Shown here in pieces: positions 29,574 through 37,724 of a stretch of 55,588 bases of DNA; the first letter of the stretch is position 1, and each line of letters opens with the position of its first letter. The notes under the pieces are model-generated. The model searched no databases. It saw only the letters and a list, made by a program, of their open reading frames with translations, and was not told where the DNA came from. The stretch is from NCBI GenBank assembly GCA_015272325.1, contig JACYLU010000013.1, positions 1 through 55,588 of the forward strand. The letters are read 5' to 3'. This DNA is from Synechococcales cyanobacterium C42_A2020_086 (GTDB lineage Bacteria > Cyanobacteriota > Cyanobacteriia > Elainellales > Elainellaceae). A program made the position numbers and the translations under genes.

Positions 29574-29897
29574 TTAGGGTTTTAGAAACCTTTGCAAATA
29601 GTGCAGCAATTCAGGCGTTTGCATCACCCCTTTGATGCGACTTGCCAACTCTCCTTCAACAAAGAGCATGGTAGTCGGCAGCGATGTCACGTCGTACTCT
29701 GCTACAAGCTGGGGATAGTTTTCCGAGTTGATCTTCACGACCTGCAATCGATGACCTACCTGAGCCTTAACCTGCTCTAGAATCGGGGCAAACTGCCGGC
29801 AGTACTCACACCAAGGGGCATAGAAGCTGACCAGAACTGGCGTTTTGGCATGAGCAATTAAATCGTGCAAACTGGAAAACTGCTTCTTGATCGCCAT
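29574..29897 (-). CDS. Thioredoxin-fold protein with WCEYC active site
   Basis: 107 residues from ATG 29897 (MAIKKQFSSL). The thioredoxin fold is clear: PVLVSFYAPWCEYCRQFAPI, LQVVKINSENYPQLVAEYDV, TSLPTTMLFVEGE with the cis-Pro, and a C-terminal helix. The redox pair is C-E-Y-C instead of C-G-P-C, which should shift its redox potential and specificity. It is cytosolic, since there is no signal peptide. It belongs to the divergent cyanobacterial thioredoxin-like group; its substrate is unknown. Confidence 0.88.
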   Translation of the reverse strand: MAIKKQFSSLHDLIAHAKTPVLVSFYAPWCEYCRQFAPILEQVKAQVGHRLQVVKINSENYPQLVAEYDVTSLPTTMLFVEGELASRIKGVMQTPELLHYLQRFLKP

Positions 29898-29978: not shown

Positions 29979-31142
29979 TCAATTTTGCATTGCCGCATTC
30001 AGCTCGTGCAGCAGGGCAATTTTACCCTGTTGTTTGGCGAGCTGCAGAGCTTGGTTCATGTCTTTCCCTGCTGCGTCATAGTTACTCAGCCTGCGATGCG
30101 TGAGTCCTCGATTGAAATAAGCTTCGGCATAGTCCGGCTGCAAGGATAGAGCCTGATCGTAGTCTTGGATTGCTCGGGGATAGTCCGCCAATGCAAAGTA
30201 AGCATTTCCGCGATTGTTATAGGCCACAGGCTGATTCGGAAGAATTGCTAGGGCTTGATTGTAGTGATCGATAGCTTCATCAAATTTCTTGAGTTGGAAG
30301 TAGACATTACCAATATTGTTGTATACCTCAACAAATTTGGGATTAATATCCAGTGCCGTATCATAATCATCTACTGCCTCTTGATAGGCTTTTAGCGCCA
30401 AATGGGTACTTCCTCGGTTGTTGTAGGCTTCGGCATACTTGGGGTTCAGCTCAATGGCTCGGCTGAAGTCAGCTAGCGCCTGTTGATATTGCTGCACAGC
30501 GTAGTAGGTATTGCCCCGATTGTAATAAGCCTTGGTGAACGCCGGGTTGATCGCGATTGCGGTCGTATAGTCTGTGATGGCCTGTTGGTAATTGCCTGAT
30601 CCATAGTAGGCATTGGCGCGGTTATTGAGTGCCTCTGCATGGTCAGGGTGCTGGCGGATCACCTCGCTATAGACCGCAATCGCCTGTGGATAGTTCTTGG
30701 TCTCTAGAAGCTGATTACCTAGCTGATAGGGATCCGGTTGCGGCTGCTCTAGGGGAATATTGCTCTGCTGAGCTGGCAGGTCATCGGAAGGAGGATCAGG
30801 CATTGGCTCTGACGAGTTGTCTTCCGAGGTCGGTTCCAGCAGCTCAGGCGGCTGCTCGCTGGCCGGTTCCCCGGTGACTGCAGAGGTCTGCTCCGTAGGC
30901 CATGCTTGGTCTGGATCGTGCTCAGGGGTGTTTTCTGCAACGGCTACCATGATTTGAGTCGCTGGTATGTCTGGAACTGCTGGAGGCGGATTATCCTCCG
31001 TGGGGTCTTGCGGATCGGGCAGGCTAGGGTCATCCGGCTGAGCCATGAAGATAGCTAGCACAACCACCACAAGCAGAATGATGAGCAACGTAGCCATCCG
31101 AGTCTGGGAAAGGGTTAAAACCAGAGGCAGGAAACCGCTCAT
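29979..31142 (-). CDS. Membrane-anchored TPR protein
   Basis: 387 residues. One N-terminal membrane helix (MATLLIILLVVVVLAIFMAQ) is followed by an acidic Pro-rich linker of about 110 residues and then about seven to eight canonical TPR units (for example KNYPQAIAVYSEVIRQHPDH, GNYQQAITDYTTAIAINPAF and KYAEAYNNRG). The TPR superhelix probably scaffolds protein complexes at the membrane. It is followed by the thioredoxin gene on the same strand (81 bp). The partner is unknown. Confidence 0.87.
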   Translation of the reverse strand: MSGFLPLVLTLSQTRMATLLIILLVVVVLAIFMAQPDDPSLPDPQDPTEDNPPPAVPDIPATQIMVAVAENTPEHDPDQAWPTEQTSAVTGEPASEQPPELLEPTSEDNSSEPMPDPPSDDLPAQQSNIPLEQPQPDPYQLGNQLLETKNYPQAIAVYSEVIRQHPDHAEALNNRANAYYGSGNYQQAITDYTTAIAINPAFTKAYYNRGNTYYAVQQYQQALADFSRAIELNPKYAEAYNNRGSTHLALKAYQEAVDDYDTALDINPKFVEVYNNIGNVYFQLKKFDEAIDHYNQALAILPNQPVAYNNRGNAYFALADYPRAIQDYDQALSLQPDYAEAYFNRGLTHRRLSNYDAAGKDMNQALQLAKQQGKIALLHELNAAMQN

Positions 31143-31278: not shown

Positions 31279-32793
31279 TTAACCCTGCTCCCCCGAGATC
31301 TGTCGAGAATTCGCTGGACAGGCGGGGCTGGCATCCACCTCTTCCACTTTTCTGACTCGGCGGACTAACAGAATCTCTTCTTCTCGTCGAATCACAGTGC
31401 GCACCGGCGCAACACACACGATACGCTGGGCTGGCGAGATCGGGAAGGTATCCCGGATGTAGACCTTGTCCTGAGATTTGGCTACTACATAGCCCATCTG
31501 TGGATCGGCGACGATGCGGACCACCACTGCTTCATCGGCTTCACCCACGCGATCGGGCTTGGGAGTCACCACAATCTCAGCGGTCTGCTGGCCAGCCGGA
31601 ATCCAAACCTCTTGGGCTGGACTCAGCGTGTAATCGCGATCATAGGTTGCCGTCCTCAAGTGACTATCCTGCACCAGCTCATACCGGACGCGCACTCCAC
31701 CAGCAGGCGCAGGCTGGTTAATCCGAATTTGAAACTTGCCACAAACGCCAGGGAGTGGATAGGACGGTTCAACTGCATCTTGCACCGCATCAATGCGGAC
31801 TTCTCGACTTTGAATAGACGAGGGGAACGGGGATGATACTGGCGGTTCAACGGGCGGCTCCAGCAACAGCGAGGTATAGAAGCAGCAGCTAGAGTCAAAG
31901 GTGTGTCGCTCTGCATAGAAGATTTGCAGTTTATAGGACATGCCTTTCTTTAACACCAGGTTGAGGCGCTCGTCGGCTTGTTCGATGCCCAGATCCCGCC
32001 GCAAATTGCGCACCAAGGTGTCTTGTTCGTAGGGTAAGCGCAGATCGAGCGTTTTCTCGGCGGTGCGGTGCAGCCCTCCTAGATCAATGACCAGCAGATT
32101 GTCGATGAAAACCCACAGATCATCGTCACCTTTGAAGTGGAAGAACTCATTGCCCTGATAGGTGAAGGTGCTAGTCACCTCCATGGTGAAGCCGTAGTTG
32201 TGGACCTTGGCCTTCAGCTCTCCGTTAGGTTCTCGGTTCCATTCAGTGTAGATCCGAATCAGTTCCTCTCGCGTCAGGGGGGTGCCATCGGGATGGGTGA
32301 GGAAGGCGCGATTGGCTTGCTTATCCTGAAGGTTCCGGTCGATCACCTCGGCTCCAATTGCCGTTAAGCTGCCATCGGGATTGAACATCTGGTCGTAGAG
32401 ATTACCCAAGGTATCTTGGCACTCATCCAGCGGGAAAAAGGGATTCCGCTCAAATTTGTACTGACCATGCTCATAGACAAATTCGAGGGGATAATTATGG
32501 ATAGTTTTGTAGGGCCCTGGGGATCTGCCAAACCATTGATTGAAATGCTCTTCCCCGGTGGTAGTGAGGCGTCGGTTGGTGGGTCCATTGTTGTAGTTCG
32601 GCTTCCCATCTTGACCCAACTCAGCCTGAACAATGCCGGTTTCAGGTTGGGGAGCGGGTTCCTGATGATCGAAGCGCCTTGGCTCTAGTCCAGTCACTTC
32701 ACCTGTGAAAGCGTCTCGCTCAAAGTCAGGATGGTTGACCGGAAAGTCCCGAATGGTGGCGAATAGCGTGATCGTGCTGGGATAGCTGCTCAT
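31279..32793 (-). CDS. Fibro-slime domain protein with C-terminal VCVAP/SPACP module
   Basis: 504 residues. The N-terminal 300 residues match the fibro-slime (PA14-related) domain: LFATIRDFPVNHPDFERD, EFFHFKGDDDLWVFIDNLLV, IDLGGLHRTAEKTLDL and LQIFYAERHTFDSSC. A Calx-beta-like beta domain follows (QDAVEPSYPLPGVCGKF, EIVVTPKPD). Residues 458-495 are a module with VCVAPVRTVIRREEEI and VEEVDASPACP that also forms the bulk of the two small proteins encoded just upstream. Fibro-slime domains occur in surface or extracellular matrix proteins, yet no signal peptide is visible, so the shared C-terminus may serve export or assembly (inference). Confidence 0.82.
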   Translation of the reverse strand: MSSYPSTITLFATIRDFPVNHPDFERDAFTGEVTGLEPRRFDHQEPAPQPETGIVQAELGQDGKPNYNNGPTNRRLTTTGEEHFNQWFGRSPGPYKTIHNYPLEFVYEHGQYKFERNPFFPLDECQDTLGNLYDQMFNPDGSLTAIGAEVIDRNLQDKQANRAFLTHPDGTPLTREELIRIYTEWNREPNGELKAKVHNYGFTMEVTSTFTYQGNEFFHFKGDDDLWVFIDNLLVIDLGGLHRTAEKTLDLRLPYEQDTLVRNLRRDLGIEQADERLNLVLKKGMSYKLQIFYAERHTFDSSCCFYTSLLLEPPVEPPVSSPFPSSIQSREVRIDAVQDAVEPSYPLPGVCGKFQIRINQPAPAGGVRVRYELVQDSHLRTATYDRDYTLSPAQEVWIPAGQQTAEIVVTPKPDRVGEADEAVVVRIVADPQMGYVVAKSQDKVYIRDTFPISPAQRIVCVAPVRTVIRREEEILLVRRVRKVEEVDASPACPANSRQISGEQG

Positions 32794-32854
32794 AGCTCTG
32801 CTCTGTGGAGAAATTCGTTGAAGAGACGACCTAATGCTGCTCGTTTAACTCTTC

Positions 32855-32882
32855 TCAATGAAGGCTCATCAATGAAGGCTCA
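32855..32882. repeat. Perfect 2 x 14-bp tandem duplication
   Basis: TCAATGAAGGCTCA occurs twice head to tail upstream of the fibro-slime gene. Confidence 0.95.
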
Positions 32883-32948
32883 ATAGAGGATCTGGTGATC
32901 GGCAGCGAGCGAAAAACCCTGGATAGATTGCCACCCGCTGCCTGAACG

Positions 32949-32983
32949 GTTTAGTAACCGTTTAGTAACCGGATTTAGTAACC
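32949..32983. repeat. 2 x 11-bp perfect tandem duplication plus a third variant
   Basis: GTTTAGTAACC appears twice head to tail, followed by GGATTTAGTAACC. The block includes the stop codon of the 78-residue gene (GY-stop), so the duplication has copied the gene's 3' end. Confidence 0.95.
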
Positions 32984-33211
32984 GGAGTTGCTGGCTGCAA
33001 CCTCACTCAACTGAGTGGTGTTCACCGGGCAAGCGGGGCTGGCATCCACCTCTTCCACCTTACGAACCCGACGGATCAGCACAATCTCCTCTTCGCGACG
33101 AATCACCGTCCGCACGGGAGCAACACAGACGATATCTTGCGCAGAACGTCCGAAGCTGTCGAAGCTGAGAGCGTCCACATCAAGCGAAATAATCTTGCTC
33201 TCTGAACTCAT
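32975..33211 (-). CDS. Small VCVAP/SPACP-module protein (78 aa)
   Basis: ATG 33211 is preceded by TAGGAG. A short leader (KIISLDVDALSFDSFGR) is followed by the module at residues 27-64: IVCVAPVRTVIRREEEIVLI, then RRVRKVEEVDASPACPVN. The two Cys (29 and 61) are 32 residues apart, exactly as in the sister protein and the fibro-slime protein. There is no signal peptide or membrane segment. The strictly alternating charged and hydrophobic stretch suggests beta strands, perhaps an assembly or cross-linking element. Family and function are unknown to me. Confidence 0.8.
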   Translation of the reverse strand: MSSESKIISLDVDALSFDSFGRSAQDIVCVAPVRTVIRREEEIVLIRRVRKVEEVDASPACPVNTTQLSEVAASNSGY

Positions 33212-33589
33212 AGTGGGATGACTCCTAGATAAATCGGTAAGTTGGTTAGTTTGAACGGAAACGTATCATTGGGGAGTTTCTTGACAAAACTCCGAGAACT
33301 CAGCAGTGCGGCCTGCTCAACCGCTTACTCCAGACCAGTCGATAACTAGCCAGATCCAGAAGTGACCAATCGACTGGGCACTATCAGACACTGCTCAGCC
33401 AACTGAATCGCCGATCACACCGGTGGCTGGATAGCAGAACCGTTCGCTTGGCAGTGCCTTCTGAACATCAGCACTATGGAGAAGCTCATTGCAACCAAAC
33501 TAATGAGGATTCAGCATCCTGAGAAGCTCATGTCAACCTGTTGAAAACCGAAGGCGGGCTTTCTGCCATCGCAATACTCTAAGACTGCC
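33212..33589. other. Intergenic region between the two small Cys-module genes
   Basis: 378 bp. A 7-bp stem-loop GGAGTTT-N7-AAACTCC (33273-33293) sits about 60 nt before the 78-aa gene and may lie in its 5' leader. No other gene or repeat is seen. Confidence 0.5.
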
Positions 33590-33865
33590 TTAGAAGCCGA
33601 CGCCCACCGGCTGAGATTGAGCAGGCGATTCTGTCAATTGCACTTCGCTCAGTTGAGTAGTGTTCACTGGGCAAGCGGGGCTGGCATCCACCTCTTCCAC
33701 CTTACGAACCCGACGAATAATCGTGATTTCCTCTTCGCGACGCACAATCGTTCGGACCGGAGCCACGCAGACAATATCCGTTGCCGGGTTCCGGGAGAAT
33801 TGGTTGAACGAAAGAGAATCGATATCCAGAGAAATCAGTTTGCCATTAGGGGTGGTTTCGCTCAT
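33590..33865 (-). CDS. Small VCVAP/SPACP-module protein (91 aa)
   Basis: ATG 33865 (MSETTPNGK) is chosen because it aligns with the start of the 78-aa paralogue; a longer frame begins at 33910. The leader KLISLDIDSLSFNQFSR matches ISLDVDALSFDSFGR of the paralogue. The module at residues 31-68 reads IVCVAPVRTIVRREEEITII then RRVRKVEEVDASPACPVN with Cys33 and Cys65. A divergent tail (AQSQPVGVGF) ends the protein. Same strand and order as the fibro-slime gene; probably functionally linked. No known family. Confidence 0.8.
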   Translation of the reverse strand: MSETTPNGKLISLDIDSLSFNQFSRNPATDIVCVAPVRTIVRREEEITIIRRVRKVEEVDASPACPVNTTQLSEVQLTESPAQSQPVGVGF

Positions 33866-34429: not shown

Positions 34430-35803
34430 TTAATCCTCGGCAGAAGCTAGCGATACCTCTTGGATTGAGCTGGTTTCCAAACCCCGACTTTGAAAGTAAA
34501 GACGATAAAGCTGAGTAGTGATCCTCGTTTGAATTCCATCAAATTCAGCAAGCCCCATGTTCTCTAGACGGTAGGCAGACAGCGAATCTAGTCTCACTCC
34601 TGGTTCAGCTTGCAAGACCTGCTGGAAGGCCGCCGCTAGAGCCGCATCGGAGGTCAGGTGCAGCCATTGCTGCTGCAAATGCTCGTGGTAAATGCTTCGT
34701 GGAGTTGCAGCGGTCTGCCAGAGTTGCTCTAGGGTAAGTTGCTGCTGCGCGAAGTGGTAGAGGGCGACGGTCGTCAAATACGGATGACCACCCACTAGGT
34801 GCTGAAGAGAGGCGGCCATTTGCCATCCGTCTCCATCGGTTCGCCAATTCAATCCATAAAGTCGGGCTAATTGTAGGACTTCTGTTGTCTGAAAGGGAGG
34901 CAGTCGCAGTGATAAACCCATCTGCAGGAGGAAGGGTGCTACCCAGGGCATGAGGCTGTCCGTTGAGTAGGACAGGATGAGTCTCAGCTTTTGCCACCGA
35001 ATGGACTGACGAGTTTGCTCATACAACGAGCCGAGGAGGGACAACATGTCCTGGGCAATGGCCGGATAGGCGAACATTTGCTGCAACTCGTCTAGGATGA
35101 GCACAATCGGGCTATCGATCCGCTCCAGCAGATAATGCTCGAAGAACAGCTTGCAGCTCAGCTTACTGCCGATTGCGTCATCCCAGTAGTGATCTAGGAC
35201 GGGAGACAGGTTTAACTGCCGACAAAGGCTGCTGCAAAACCAGCGTAGAAACGGCCGCAGTGAGGTCAAGATAGAGACTTCGGCATCGTGCAAGTTGAGA
35301 TACACCCTCTCGTAGCCCAACGTATCAGCCCGGGCTGTAATCTGGTTCAGCAACGAGCTGCGACCAAACCGATGAGGACCGCTGATCCGCAGCAAACAGC
35401 CAGTTCGGGTTATTTCCTGCATGGCTTGGGCTTCAATCGGTGGTCGAGGGAGATAAAACGGAGAGTCGGCCGAGAGCGGTCCACCCGGGAAGCTCATGTC
35501 TGTTGGGGTTAAGGGCTGAAGCGTCAGGACGCTCGAGCTAGACGGAACAAAGGAGCGATTCGAGTACTGCTTGAGAACATAGGGTAAGTTGCGCTTTGTG
35601 ACCCGTTGACCCAGCGCTTCCGAAAGCTCTTTCCACAGTTGAGCGCCGACTTCTTTCAGGTAACCGCTGACGTAGCCCAACTCCTGTTCCATGCCGTCGT
35701 AGGCTGTCCCTTGGAGAGTCTTTAACACCACCTTCTGTTCAATCGGACTGAGCAATCGCTGGAGATGCTGTTCCACTACCCAGAGCACATCCTGATCCGT
35801 CAT
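34430..35803 (-). CDS. AAA-like (AAA_35-type) ATPase with N-terminal winged-helix domain; Walker Lys replaced
   Basis: 457 residues from ATG 35803 (MTDQDVLWVVEQHL); GTG 35815 is an alternative. An N-terminal effector-type winged-helix domain (RLLSPIEQKVVLKTLQGTAY, ELSEALGQRV) is followed by the AAA module: LRISGPHRFGRSSLLNQI at the Walker A position with Arg in place of Lys, VLILDELQQMF as Walker B, LRLILSYSTDS as sensor region, and LVGGHPYLTTVALYHF, the C-terminal motif of this family. Relatives are common in cyanobacteria as STAND-like regulators; function unknown. The Arg may impair ATP hydrolysis. Confidence 0.82.
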   Translation of the reverse strand: MTDQDVLWVVEQHLQRLLSPIEQKVVLKTLQGTAYDGMEQELGYVSGYLKEVGAQLWKELSEALGQRVTKRNLPYVLKQYSNRSFVPSSSSVLTLQPLTPTDMSFPGGPLSADSPFYLPRPPIEAQAMQEITRTGCLLRISGPHRFGRSSLLNQITARADTLGYERVYLNLHDAEVSILTSLRPFLRWFCSSLCRQLNLSPVLDHYWDDAIGSKLSCKLFFEHYLLERIDSPIVLILDELQQMFAYPAIAQDMLSLLGSLYEQTRQSIRWQKLRLILSYSTDSLMPWVAPFLLQMGLSLRLPPFQTTEVLQLARLYGLNWRTDGDGWQMAASLQHLVGGHPYLTTVALYHFAQQQLTLEQLWQTAATPRSIYHEHLQQQWLHLTSDAALAAAFQQVLQAEPGVRLDSLSAYRLENMGLAEFDGIQTRITTQLYRLYFQSRGLETSSIQEVSLASAED

Positions 35804-35863
35804 GACCAACGGCACCTCAAATGGCCAATGATTTGCATTTTAGAGGAAGAACAGAATGCTAGT

Positions 35864-37274: not shown

Positions 37275-37724
37275 ATGAATCTTGAGGATAAAGACCTAAA
37301 AGACTTATTCAAGCTTGCCGATCGGATCGGTCGACAGCACTATCACAAACTGACGCAACAGGATCTAATCGACTACAAAGCCTTTGATCGCTGGCGTTAC
37401 GTCAATGGTGATAGCGAGTGTGGCACGACTCCAGAAAGCCAGCTTTGGGCAAAAGAACACTCCGATGCCCATTGCCCGATCTGCGGAACTAAATTTTCCG
37501 AGTGCGGCGGTCGAACGATTGACCACAAACTGCCGCGATCGCAATATCCCTGGCTAGCGATGGAGTTTCAGAATTTTTGGGTGATCTGTCGAGCCTGCAA
37601 CCAAGAAAAGGGAGAGATGCATTGGTTCGAGTATGAGCACTACATATTGATTCATCATCCGGATCGCCTAGCAGACGTGCAGCTTGCTTGCCCGACCCAA
37701 TTGCTCAAGTCTCTGAAATCATGA
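37275..37724 (+). CDS. HNH endonuclease
   Basis: 149 residues. The HNH fold is visible from CPICGTKFSECGGRTIDHKL (first CxxC and the catalytic D-H) through FQNFWVICRACNQEKGEM (second CxxC, N/K). This layout (C-x2-C, DH, N, C-x2-C) matches zinc-stabilised HNH nucleases that cut DNA. The N-terminal 60 residues are helical and carry LADRIGRQHYH, similar to a segment in the upstream gene. No phage or restriction partner such as a methyltransferase is adjacent. The end is convergent with the SLH protein gene 89 bp away. Confidence 0.85.
   Translation: MNLEDKDLKDLFKLADRIGRQHYHKLTQQDLIDYKAFDRWRYVNGDSECGTTPESQLWAKEHSDAHCPICGTKFSECGGRTIDHKLPRSQYPWLAMEFQNFWVICRACNQEKGEMHWFEYEHYILIHHPDRLADVQLACPTQLLKSLKS

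Follow-up and report, generated by a model that had tools for sequence, protein, structure and literature searches.

Connector domains that join diverse proteins to a common scaffold are familiar from systems of the dockerin/cohesin type. The stretch of DNA reviewed here (the window, 55,588 nucleotides of contig JACYLU010000013.1 from Synechococcales cyanobacterium C42_A2020_086) contains three adjacent genes that share a module of approximately 36 residues, carried by a large fibro-slime-type protein and by two small proteins that consist of little else. As with dockerin and cohesin, one small conserved module is found on unrelated partners and in scaffold-like stand-alone copies; however, no sequence relation to those systems was found, and here scaffold and partners carry the same module, with two invariant cysteines. 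Fibro-slime proteins (TIGR02148), associated with Fibrobacter adhesion, resemble the large 504-amino acid (aa) protein in its TIGR02148 domain and PA14 match, but the module is missing from ten module-free fibro-slime loci and also occurs in genomes without fibro-slime. Thioredoxins (PF00085) belong to the same fold family as the product of a neighboring gene, from which they differ in the active site, CGPC being replaced by CEYC, CGYC, CSYC, CPYS, or CSSS in nine aligned locus copies. The ternary conflict systems built on vWA and beta-propeller domains (Kaur et al., 2020, PMC7159879) likewise have vWA fused to a propeller, with tetratricopeptide repeat (TPR) and membrane segments nearby; they differ in that no MoxR was found among six window proteins, and “thioredoxin” occurs 0 times in the main text of PMC7159879.

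The Module and Its Distribution

The genes and the module core in question are located in the window as follows.

33590..33865, minus strand: stand-alone copy 1, a small protein of 91 aa whose module core spans residues 32-66
32975..33211, minus strand: stand-alone copy 2, a small protein of 78 aa whose module core spans residues 28-62
31279..32793, minus strand: 504-aa protein with a TIGR02148 fibro-slime/PA14-like domain at residues 198-309, a middle region at approximately 329-450, and a C-terminal module at 459-493
31315..31419, minus strand: residues 459-493 of the 504-aa protein, forming its module core

The first-pass annotation of this DNA had described three open reading frames (ORFs) on one strand sharing a module with two cysteines 32 residues apart, and a leader (ISLDxDxLSFxxF) common to the two small proteins. 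Each of these ORFs is present on the minus strand, the cysteine spacing holds in each protein, and the leader is present in both the 78-aa and the 91-aa products. The core (VCVAPVR...SPACP) is 35 residues long in each of the three, with the window consensus VCVAPVRT[IV][IV]RREEEI..[IV]RRVRKVEEVDASPACP. Codon comparisons place synonymous differences (pS) far above nonsynonymous ones (pN) in every pair (0.64 vs 0.039 for 504/78, 0.77 vs 0.110 for 504/91, and 0.38 vs 0.084 for 78/91), and the module thus represents old copies held alike by selection; similarity by chance or by fresh duplication is ruled out by these ranges (pS 0.38-0.77 vs pN 0.04-0.11). In an alignment of 37 copies (the other 23 of 60 known matches lie outside it), the core is free of insertions and deletions and 14 positions are invariant in 37/37, both cysteines included (in the numbering of the 91-aa protein, C33, P36, R38, R42, R43, E44, E45, E46, R51, R54, K55, E57, C65, and P66). 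Blocks of opposite charge (RR-EEE ... RR-RK-EE-D) are conserved within the module, and exactly two cysteines are present in 20 of 21 stand-alone ORFs. Neither the small proteins nor the module profile matched anything in Pfam, NCBIfam, PHROGs, PADLOC, or PDB sequences; a literature text search for four module peptides likewise found none. The module is real, strongly selected, unannotated, and common to several architectures. Even if the mechanism proposed below is wrong, it constitutes an unnamed protein family, one that connects genes of the fibro-slime, vWA-like, propeller-like, and lectin-like types in the carrier genomes.

The module is confined to few genomes (counts include the window's own). 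Queried with the 91-aa protein, that genome (5.93 Mb in 38 contigs) shows three places only at E<=10, with E values of 4.1e-55 (the protein itself), 2.9e-31, and 1.2e-20. Eight carriers were found in a first search of 60 relatives, and a profile (A1) built from 30 rows detected the module in 10 of the 388 class genomes (Cyanobacteriia) examined, with 30 matches and strong scores throughout, and in 8 of the 36 examined from the window's family. When the 91-aa protein was compared with genomes of 84,980 species, a scan that reaches close relatives only, 15 loci under 14 organism names were recovered, all cyanobacterial by record titles and one a Chroococcidiopsidaceae metagenome-assembled genome; most of these carriers belong to what we take to be filamentous groups. 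Five organisms are shared with the class sample, and the other nine genomes hold 1-5 matches each (30 matches), giving a combined tally of 19 genomes and 60 module matches. Several carrier assemblies are fragmented. A mobile or viral origin was considered and rejected, since plasmid, phage, and IMG/VR collections gave zero matches. Within 24 locus stretches, a greedy ORF caller (at least 60 aa) returned 45 module ORFs in 21; it overlooked some stand-alone copies (e.g., L027:7694-7927, L029:5270-5503, and L036:8001-8234), and module gene counts are therefore lower bounds. Stand-alone copies number 0-3 per stretch. ORFs antisense to the module look like its shadows, and two recurrent families of the locus comparison (F4 and F5) that appear to be of this kind were discarded.

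Module-Bearing Architectures and Neighboring Genes

In the 504-aa protein, residues 198-309 match TIGR02148 with 91.2 bits against a curated cut-off of 45, and the protein also matches PA14 (PF07691; 33.6 bits, gathering score 24). An AlphaFold2 model from 7 rows is of low confidence (mean pLDDT 49.9) and fair in the fibro-slime part only. Foldseek comparison of this model lists PA14 carbohydrate-binding domains from rank 16 (probability 1.00, E 2.7e-3, rmsd 3.8 over 109 columns), below higher-ranked glycosidases at TM-scores of at most 0.15 and a top ten that is mostly beta-glucuronidases at TM-scores near 0.13; it supports a PA14-like fold of the fibro-slime part only in combination with the Pfam match. 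The middle region (approximately 329-450) has a counterpart only in L072 among the genes compared; a Calx-beta-like identity was suspected and not confirmed.

The sharing of the module between large and small proteins, as first described, is borne out by the three-gene set and by other loci, whereas the proposed tie to fibro-slime is not. TIGR02148 occurs in 27 of the 388 genomes, and only 4 of the 10 module genomes have it (G000, G023, G112, and G320); the remaining six are without a match at E<=1e-4, one of these (G031) being 72% complete. Conversely, the ten module-free fibro-slime loci (L096-L105) show no module match and no close TPR or thioredoxin neighbor match, a distant thioredoxin lying at the edge of L105. 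Module copies also occur on four other domain types. The first-pass annotation had proposed a module-profile search for constant co-occurrence with fibro-slime domains and had named homologs outside that context as its own grounds for refutation; such homologs were found, and the fibro-slime-specific reading is refuted accordingly. The annotation is therefore partly supported, having identified the right object and drawn conclusions on fibro-slime and export that were too narrow.

Module placement varies among loci. It is C-terminal on fibro-slime proteins in 7 loci (the window, L027, L028, L029, L041, L072, and L082) and on vWA-like, propeller-like, and J proteins (L030, L035, L036, L082, and L107), N-terminal on lectin-like proteins (L027, L028, L029, L076, L077, L079, and L084), on J proteins (L074 and L085), and on one propeller-like protein (L034), and internal in L106 of Coleofasciculus sp. 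S288. There, domain types that are split over separate genes in other genomes are fused into a single 1,070-aa chain (vWA 1-217, propeller 218-467, J-J 493-762, module 828-885, lectin-like 881-1070, with slightly overlapping borders), which suggests that these partners act together. The domain queries were cut from L106 (the majority) and from window proteins and compared with locus genes, and the real test of the L106-derived queries is their matches to separate proteins in other loci. The names “J” (jelly-roll-like) and “vWA-like” were given by eye, “propeller-like” is a reading of matches to Pfam DUF4394/DUF6923, and “lectin-like” is a reading of the sequence. The vWA-like domain gave Pfam scores below threshold only and no PDB match, no convincing PDB match emerged for the lectin-like part from two single-protein searches and one profile search, and no literature was found on DUF4394 with cyanobacteria. 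The J domain is present in 48 of the 388 genomes and is thus not specific to the module.

Some of these arrays have further features. In L027 (7340-7927 and 8629-10557) and L029 (4943-5503 and 6195-8123), module neighbors in one frame are parted by a single TAG; between small copies it replaces a Gln of the sister copy (...TTQLS-TAG-VQLE...), and only one TAG likewise interrupts the frame that runs from the fibro-slime gene into the lectin-like gene. If read through, these stops would yield fusions; simple truncation after duplication is equally likely, TAG accounting for 13 of 31 other stops there. Enzyme genes lie in, or adjoin, module arrays in L030 (9793-11570, cyclase-like and Tle1-like phospholipase), L106 (3993-5021, Tle1-like phospholipase), and L035 (6170-7171, Exo_endo_phos).

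Downstream of the module genes in the window, a TPR gene and a thioredoxin gene, on both of which the first-pass annotation was silent, continue on the same strand. The upstream ATPase is probably outside the module system.

29979..31142, minus strand: TPR protein of 387 aa, its single N-terminal membrane segment at residues 16-34; relatives at 7 further loci
29574..29897, minus strand: thioredoxin-fold protein of 107 aa with a WCEYC active site and, by eye, no start resembling a signal peptide; separate from the CGPC thioredoxins
34430..35815, minus strand: AAA_35 ATPase, upstream; relatives near 2 other module loci (L030 and L072)

Counting the window, the thioredoxin family is found in 9 of the 24 locus stretches, or 10 loci with L106, and the TPR family in 8 of the 24. 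The window thioredoxin matches PF00085 (75.2 bits vs 23.5), and its best matches in the 388 genomes (232.6, 171.7, and 149.8 bits) lie in three genomes that all carry the module (G000, G023, and G112), whereas the next match scores 117.4 bits; a second copy in the window's genome scores 113.4 bits, with 53% identity to the window copy. In a tree of the nine locus copies, the L106 copy, and ten WCGPC copies picked from weaker matches, the nine split from L106 and the CGPC copies with a bootstrap of 100, and the nine together with L106 split from the CGPC copies with a bootstrap of 97. The active sites at the loci are WCEYC, WCGYC (5), GCSYC, QCPYS, and WCSSS, with WCGSC in L106, so that CGPC is found in 0/9 aligned locus thioredoxins vs 10/10 housekeeping copies; the first cysteine is retained in 9/9 and the second in 7/9. 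The locus thioredoxin is distinct from the housekeeping thioredoxin, and its CxYC motif presumably resembles the active sites of DsbC and glutaredoxin.

A Candidate Redox-Handled Connector

The reading favored here, to which we assign a probability of roughly 0.45, is that the module is a redox-handled multimerizing connector, in which self-association, disulfides, docking, and compartment are parts that we infer. The module would be a short multimerizing connector domain, the small proteins made almost entirely of it would act as scaffold subunits, and large module proteins, in the window the fibro-slime/PA14-like one, would plug into this scaffold, so that a single assembly presents several binding domains. 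The blocks of opposite charge may aid self-association, and the two invariant cysteines could form or exchange inter-subunit disulfides, which a dedicated thioredoxin-like protein (mostly CxYC) would either isomerize or prevent by keeping the cysteines reduced, while the TPR protein might dock the assembly at the membrane. Disulfide chemistry, already suggested for the module when it was first noticed, is plausible, both cysteines being invariant in 37/37 copies with an altered thioredoxin alongside.

The best indirect sign that the module multimerizes comes from proteins in which regularly helical tails take its place. Four proteins of 845-1,139 aa without membrane-strength stretches (L108 and L109, J-J; L110 and L111, propeller-J-J) have a long repetitive tail where L107 and L106 carry the module. 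Helical periodicity in the tail is stronger than in any of 200 shuffles in 4/4, three control regions not exceeding shuffles, and proline makes up 0-0.9%, as in a coiled-coil stalk. These proteins share a cysteine-containing C-terminus (WTLxxLxALxxCxTDRQAL...) and look like a separate family; Pfam gave no match for the two of them scanned. For the module monomer itself, AlphaFold2 with the 37 aligned copies predicted no fold (mean pLDDT 57.4, pTM 0.18), which is compatible with folding only on assembly. A 3-residue period in the module was set aside as too weak, being equalled by 4.5% of shuffles and one of three angles tried.

Several observations weigh against such a connector. The poor module model may merely reflect a shallow alignment of very similar copies, and module hydropathy has neither helix nor strand periodicity, both lying below shuffle means, so that the comparison with a coiled coil is one of position and not of structure. 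The thioredoxins of L035 and L036 are without the second cysteine, the TPR gene is absent from L030, and G320 carries the module yet gave no thioredoxin match at E<=1e-25. Fifteen of the 24 stretches (L031, L034, L041, L073-L081, and L083-L085), several of them short, show neither the thioredoxin nor the TPR family and keep modules with both cysteines where aligned; L034 and L106 share one genome.

Were the connector reading true, mostly filamentous cyanobacteria would possess a small encoded connector that joins unrelated binding domains and has a built-in redox switch, giving unannotated proteins a testable function and offering a compact part for redox-gated protein assemblies. A broader formulation, an undescribed cyanobacterial assembly system in which a charge-block module of approximately 45 residues with two invariant cysteines polymerizes under its own CxYC thioredoxin while lineages plug in interchangeable glycan- or ligand-binding domains, is somewhat less probable.

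Compartment and Competing Explanations

Where the module resides bears on its main competitor, an extracellular adhesive fiber or sheath whose leaderless subunits would exit by an unknown route or by lysis and whose modules would be cross-linked by disulfides outside the cell. Disulfides are more stable outside the cytosol, and the PA14-like character of the fibro-slime part (by Pfam, with PA14 carbohydrate-binding domains listed by Foldseek) and the fibro-slime proteins of Fibrobacter, which occur for the most part in the extracellular medium (PMC4668043), agree with this account. Hydropathy offers it no support. The 504-aa protein, correctly noted at the outset to be without a signal peptide, has no signal-like or membrane stretch by this heuristic (highest 19-residue mean 1.07), none of the 45 module ORFs reaches a 19-residue mean of 1.6 (maximum 1.48), and the L106 and L107 proteins have no stretch at membrane threshold. 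Several other cyanobacterial fibro-slime ORFs likewise start without a hydrophobic N-terminus (by eye). The window thioredoxin has no signal-peptide-like start, and secretion genes were not noticed among the recurrent neighbor families, only part of the neighbors having been identified. An earlier suggestion that the module directs export or anchoring is unlikely, since a terminal tag would not be found N-terminally, C-terminally, and internally; it also differs from sorting signals of the PEP-CTERM or LPXTG kind, which invariably stand at the C-terminus and include a membrane segment, its position being variable and a membrane segment lacking.

J and vWA-like domains are also found at the end of membrane proteins, for which the two clean cases suggest a cytoplasmic topology. 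In L112-L116 the J domain ends large proteins, three of which were scanned with Pfam and contain a solute-binding domain (PBP_like_2) and DUF4912 or TPR. Two of seven J proteins (L114:2374-5796 and L116:2250-5822) have a signal-like start and one later segment followed by positive charge, which would place vWA and J in the cytoplasm; the other five are unclean, an extra Ala/Gly-rich stretch passing threshold that, if membrane-crossing, would put the J end outside. The membrane segment of the window TPR protein has a mean hydropathy of 3.19, and its topology from flanking charge is contradictory among eight copies. We lean slightly toward the cytosol or the inner membrane face, with the extracellular Fibrobacter proteins speaking against the cytosol; the extracellular fiber is regarded as rather unlikely. 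In L113 (G000:C8:253000-265500, in the window's genome) and L115, a J protein of approximately 131 aa adjoins a large protein of the PBP-DUF4912-J type, and many genomes contain J matches in pairs a few kb from each other.

A conflict or defense device, with module-scaffolded sensors (lectin-, PA14-, vWA-, and propeller-like) and enzymes that hit the cell or an invader, would account for the cyclase-like, Tle1-like phospholipase, and Exo_endo_phos genes of L030, L106, and L035 and for the patchy distribution (10/388 genomes), and vWA-propeller conflict systems have been described (PMC7159879). Such enzymes were, however, recognized in three loci and not in the window, only part of the neighbors having been scanned, and PADLOC gave only a generic TPR match for seven proteins. 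The six window proteins scanned include neither member of a MoxR-vWA pair (the upstream ATPase is AAA_35), the vWA-bearing L030, L035, and L106 lying outside this test. A defense function is hence considered improbable. Much the same applies to the proposal that the module is a peptide ligand that docks on the neighboring TPR or thioredoxin protein without self-association. The TPR and thioredoxin genes adjoin it in 8 and 10 loci, and a monomer predicted to be disordered resembles a linear ligand, but in most of the other stretches the module occurs without these genes, and stand-alone copies have no other domain to deliver, so that simple docking seems scarcely probable. That the small proteins are precursors akin to ribosomally synthesized and post-translationally modified peptides (RiPPs), with the module as a leader or core recognized by a maturase, is highly improbable despite their short, near-identical, cysteine-containing tandem ORFs, as the core is fixed instead of variable, the module is also built into a multidomain chain of 1,070 aa and ends large proteins, and no known maturase appeared among the Pfam-scanned proteins (neighbors were not scanned systematically).

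Elsewhere in the window, positions 37275-37724 encode a small protein with an HNH-nuclease-like pattern (CPICGTKF...DHKLPRSQYP...CRACNQEKG), named by eye only. A 13-base tandem repeat in 3 copies (32950-32986) overlaps the end of the 78-aa gene and repeats its last codons and stop codon.

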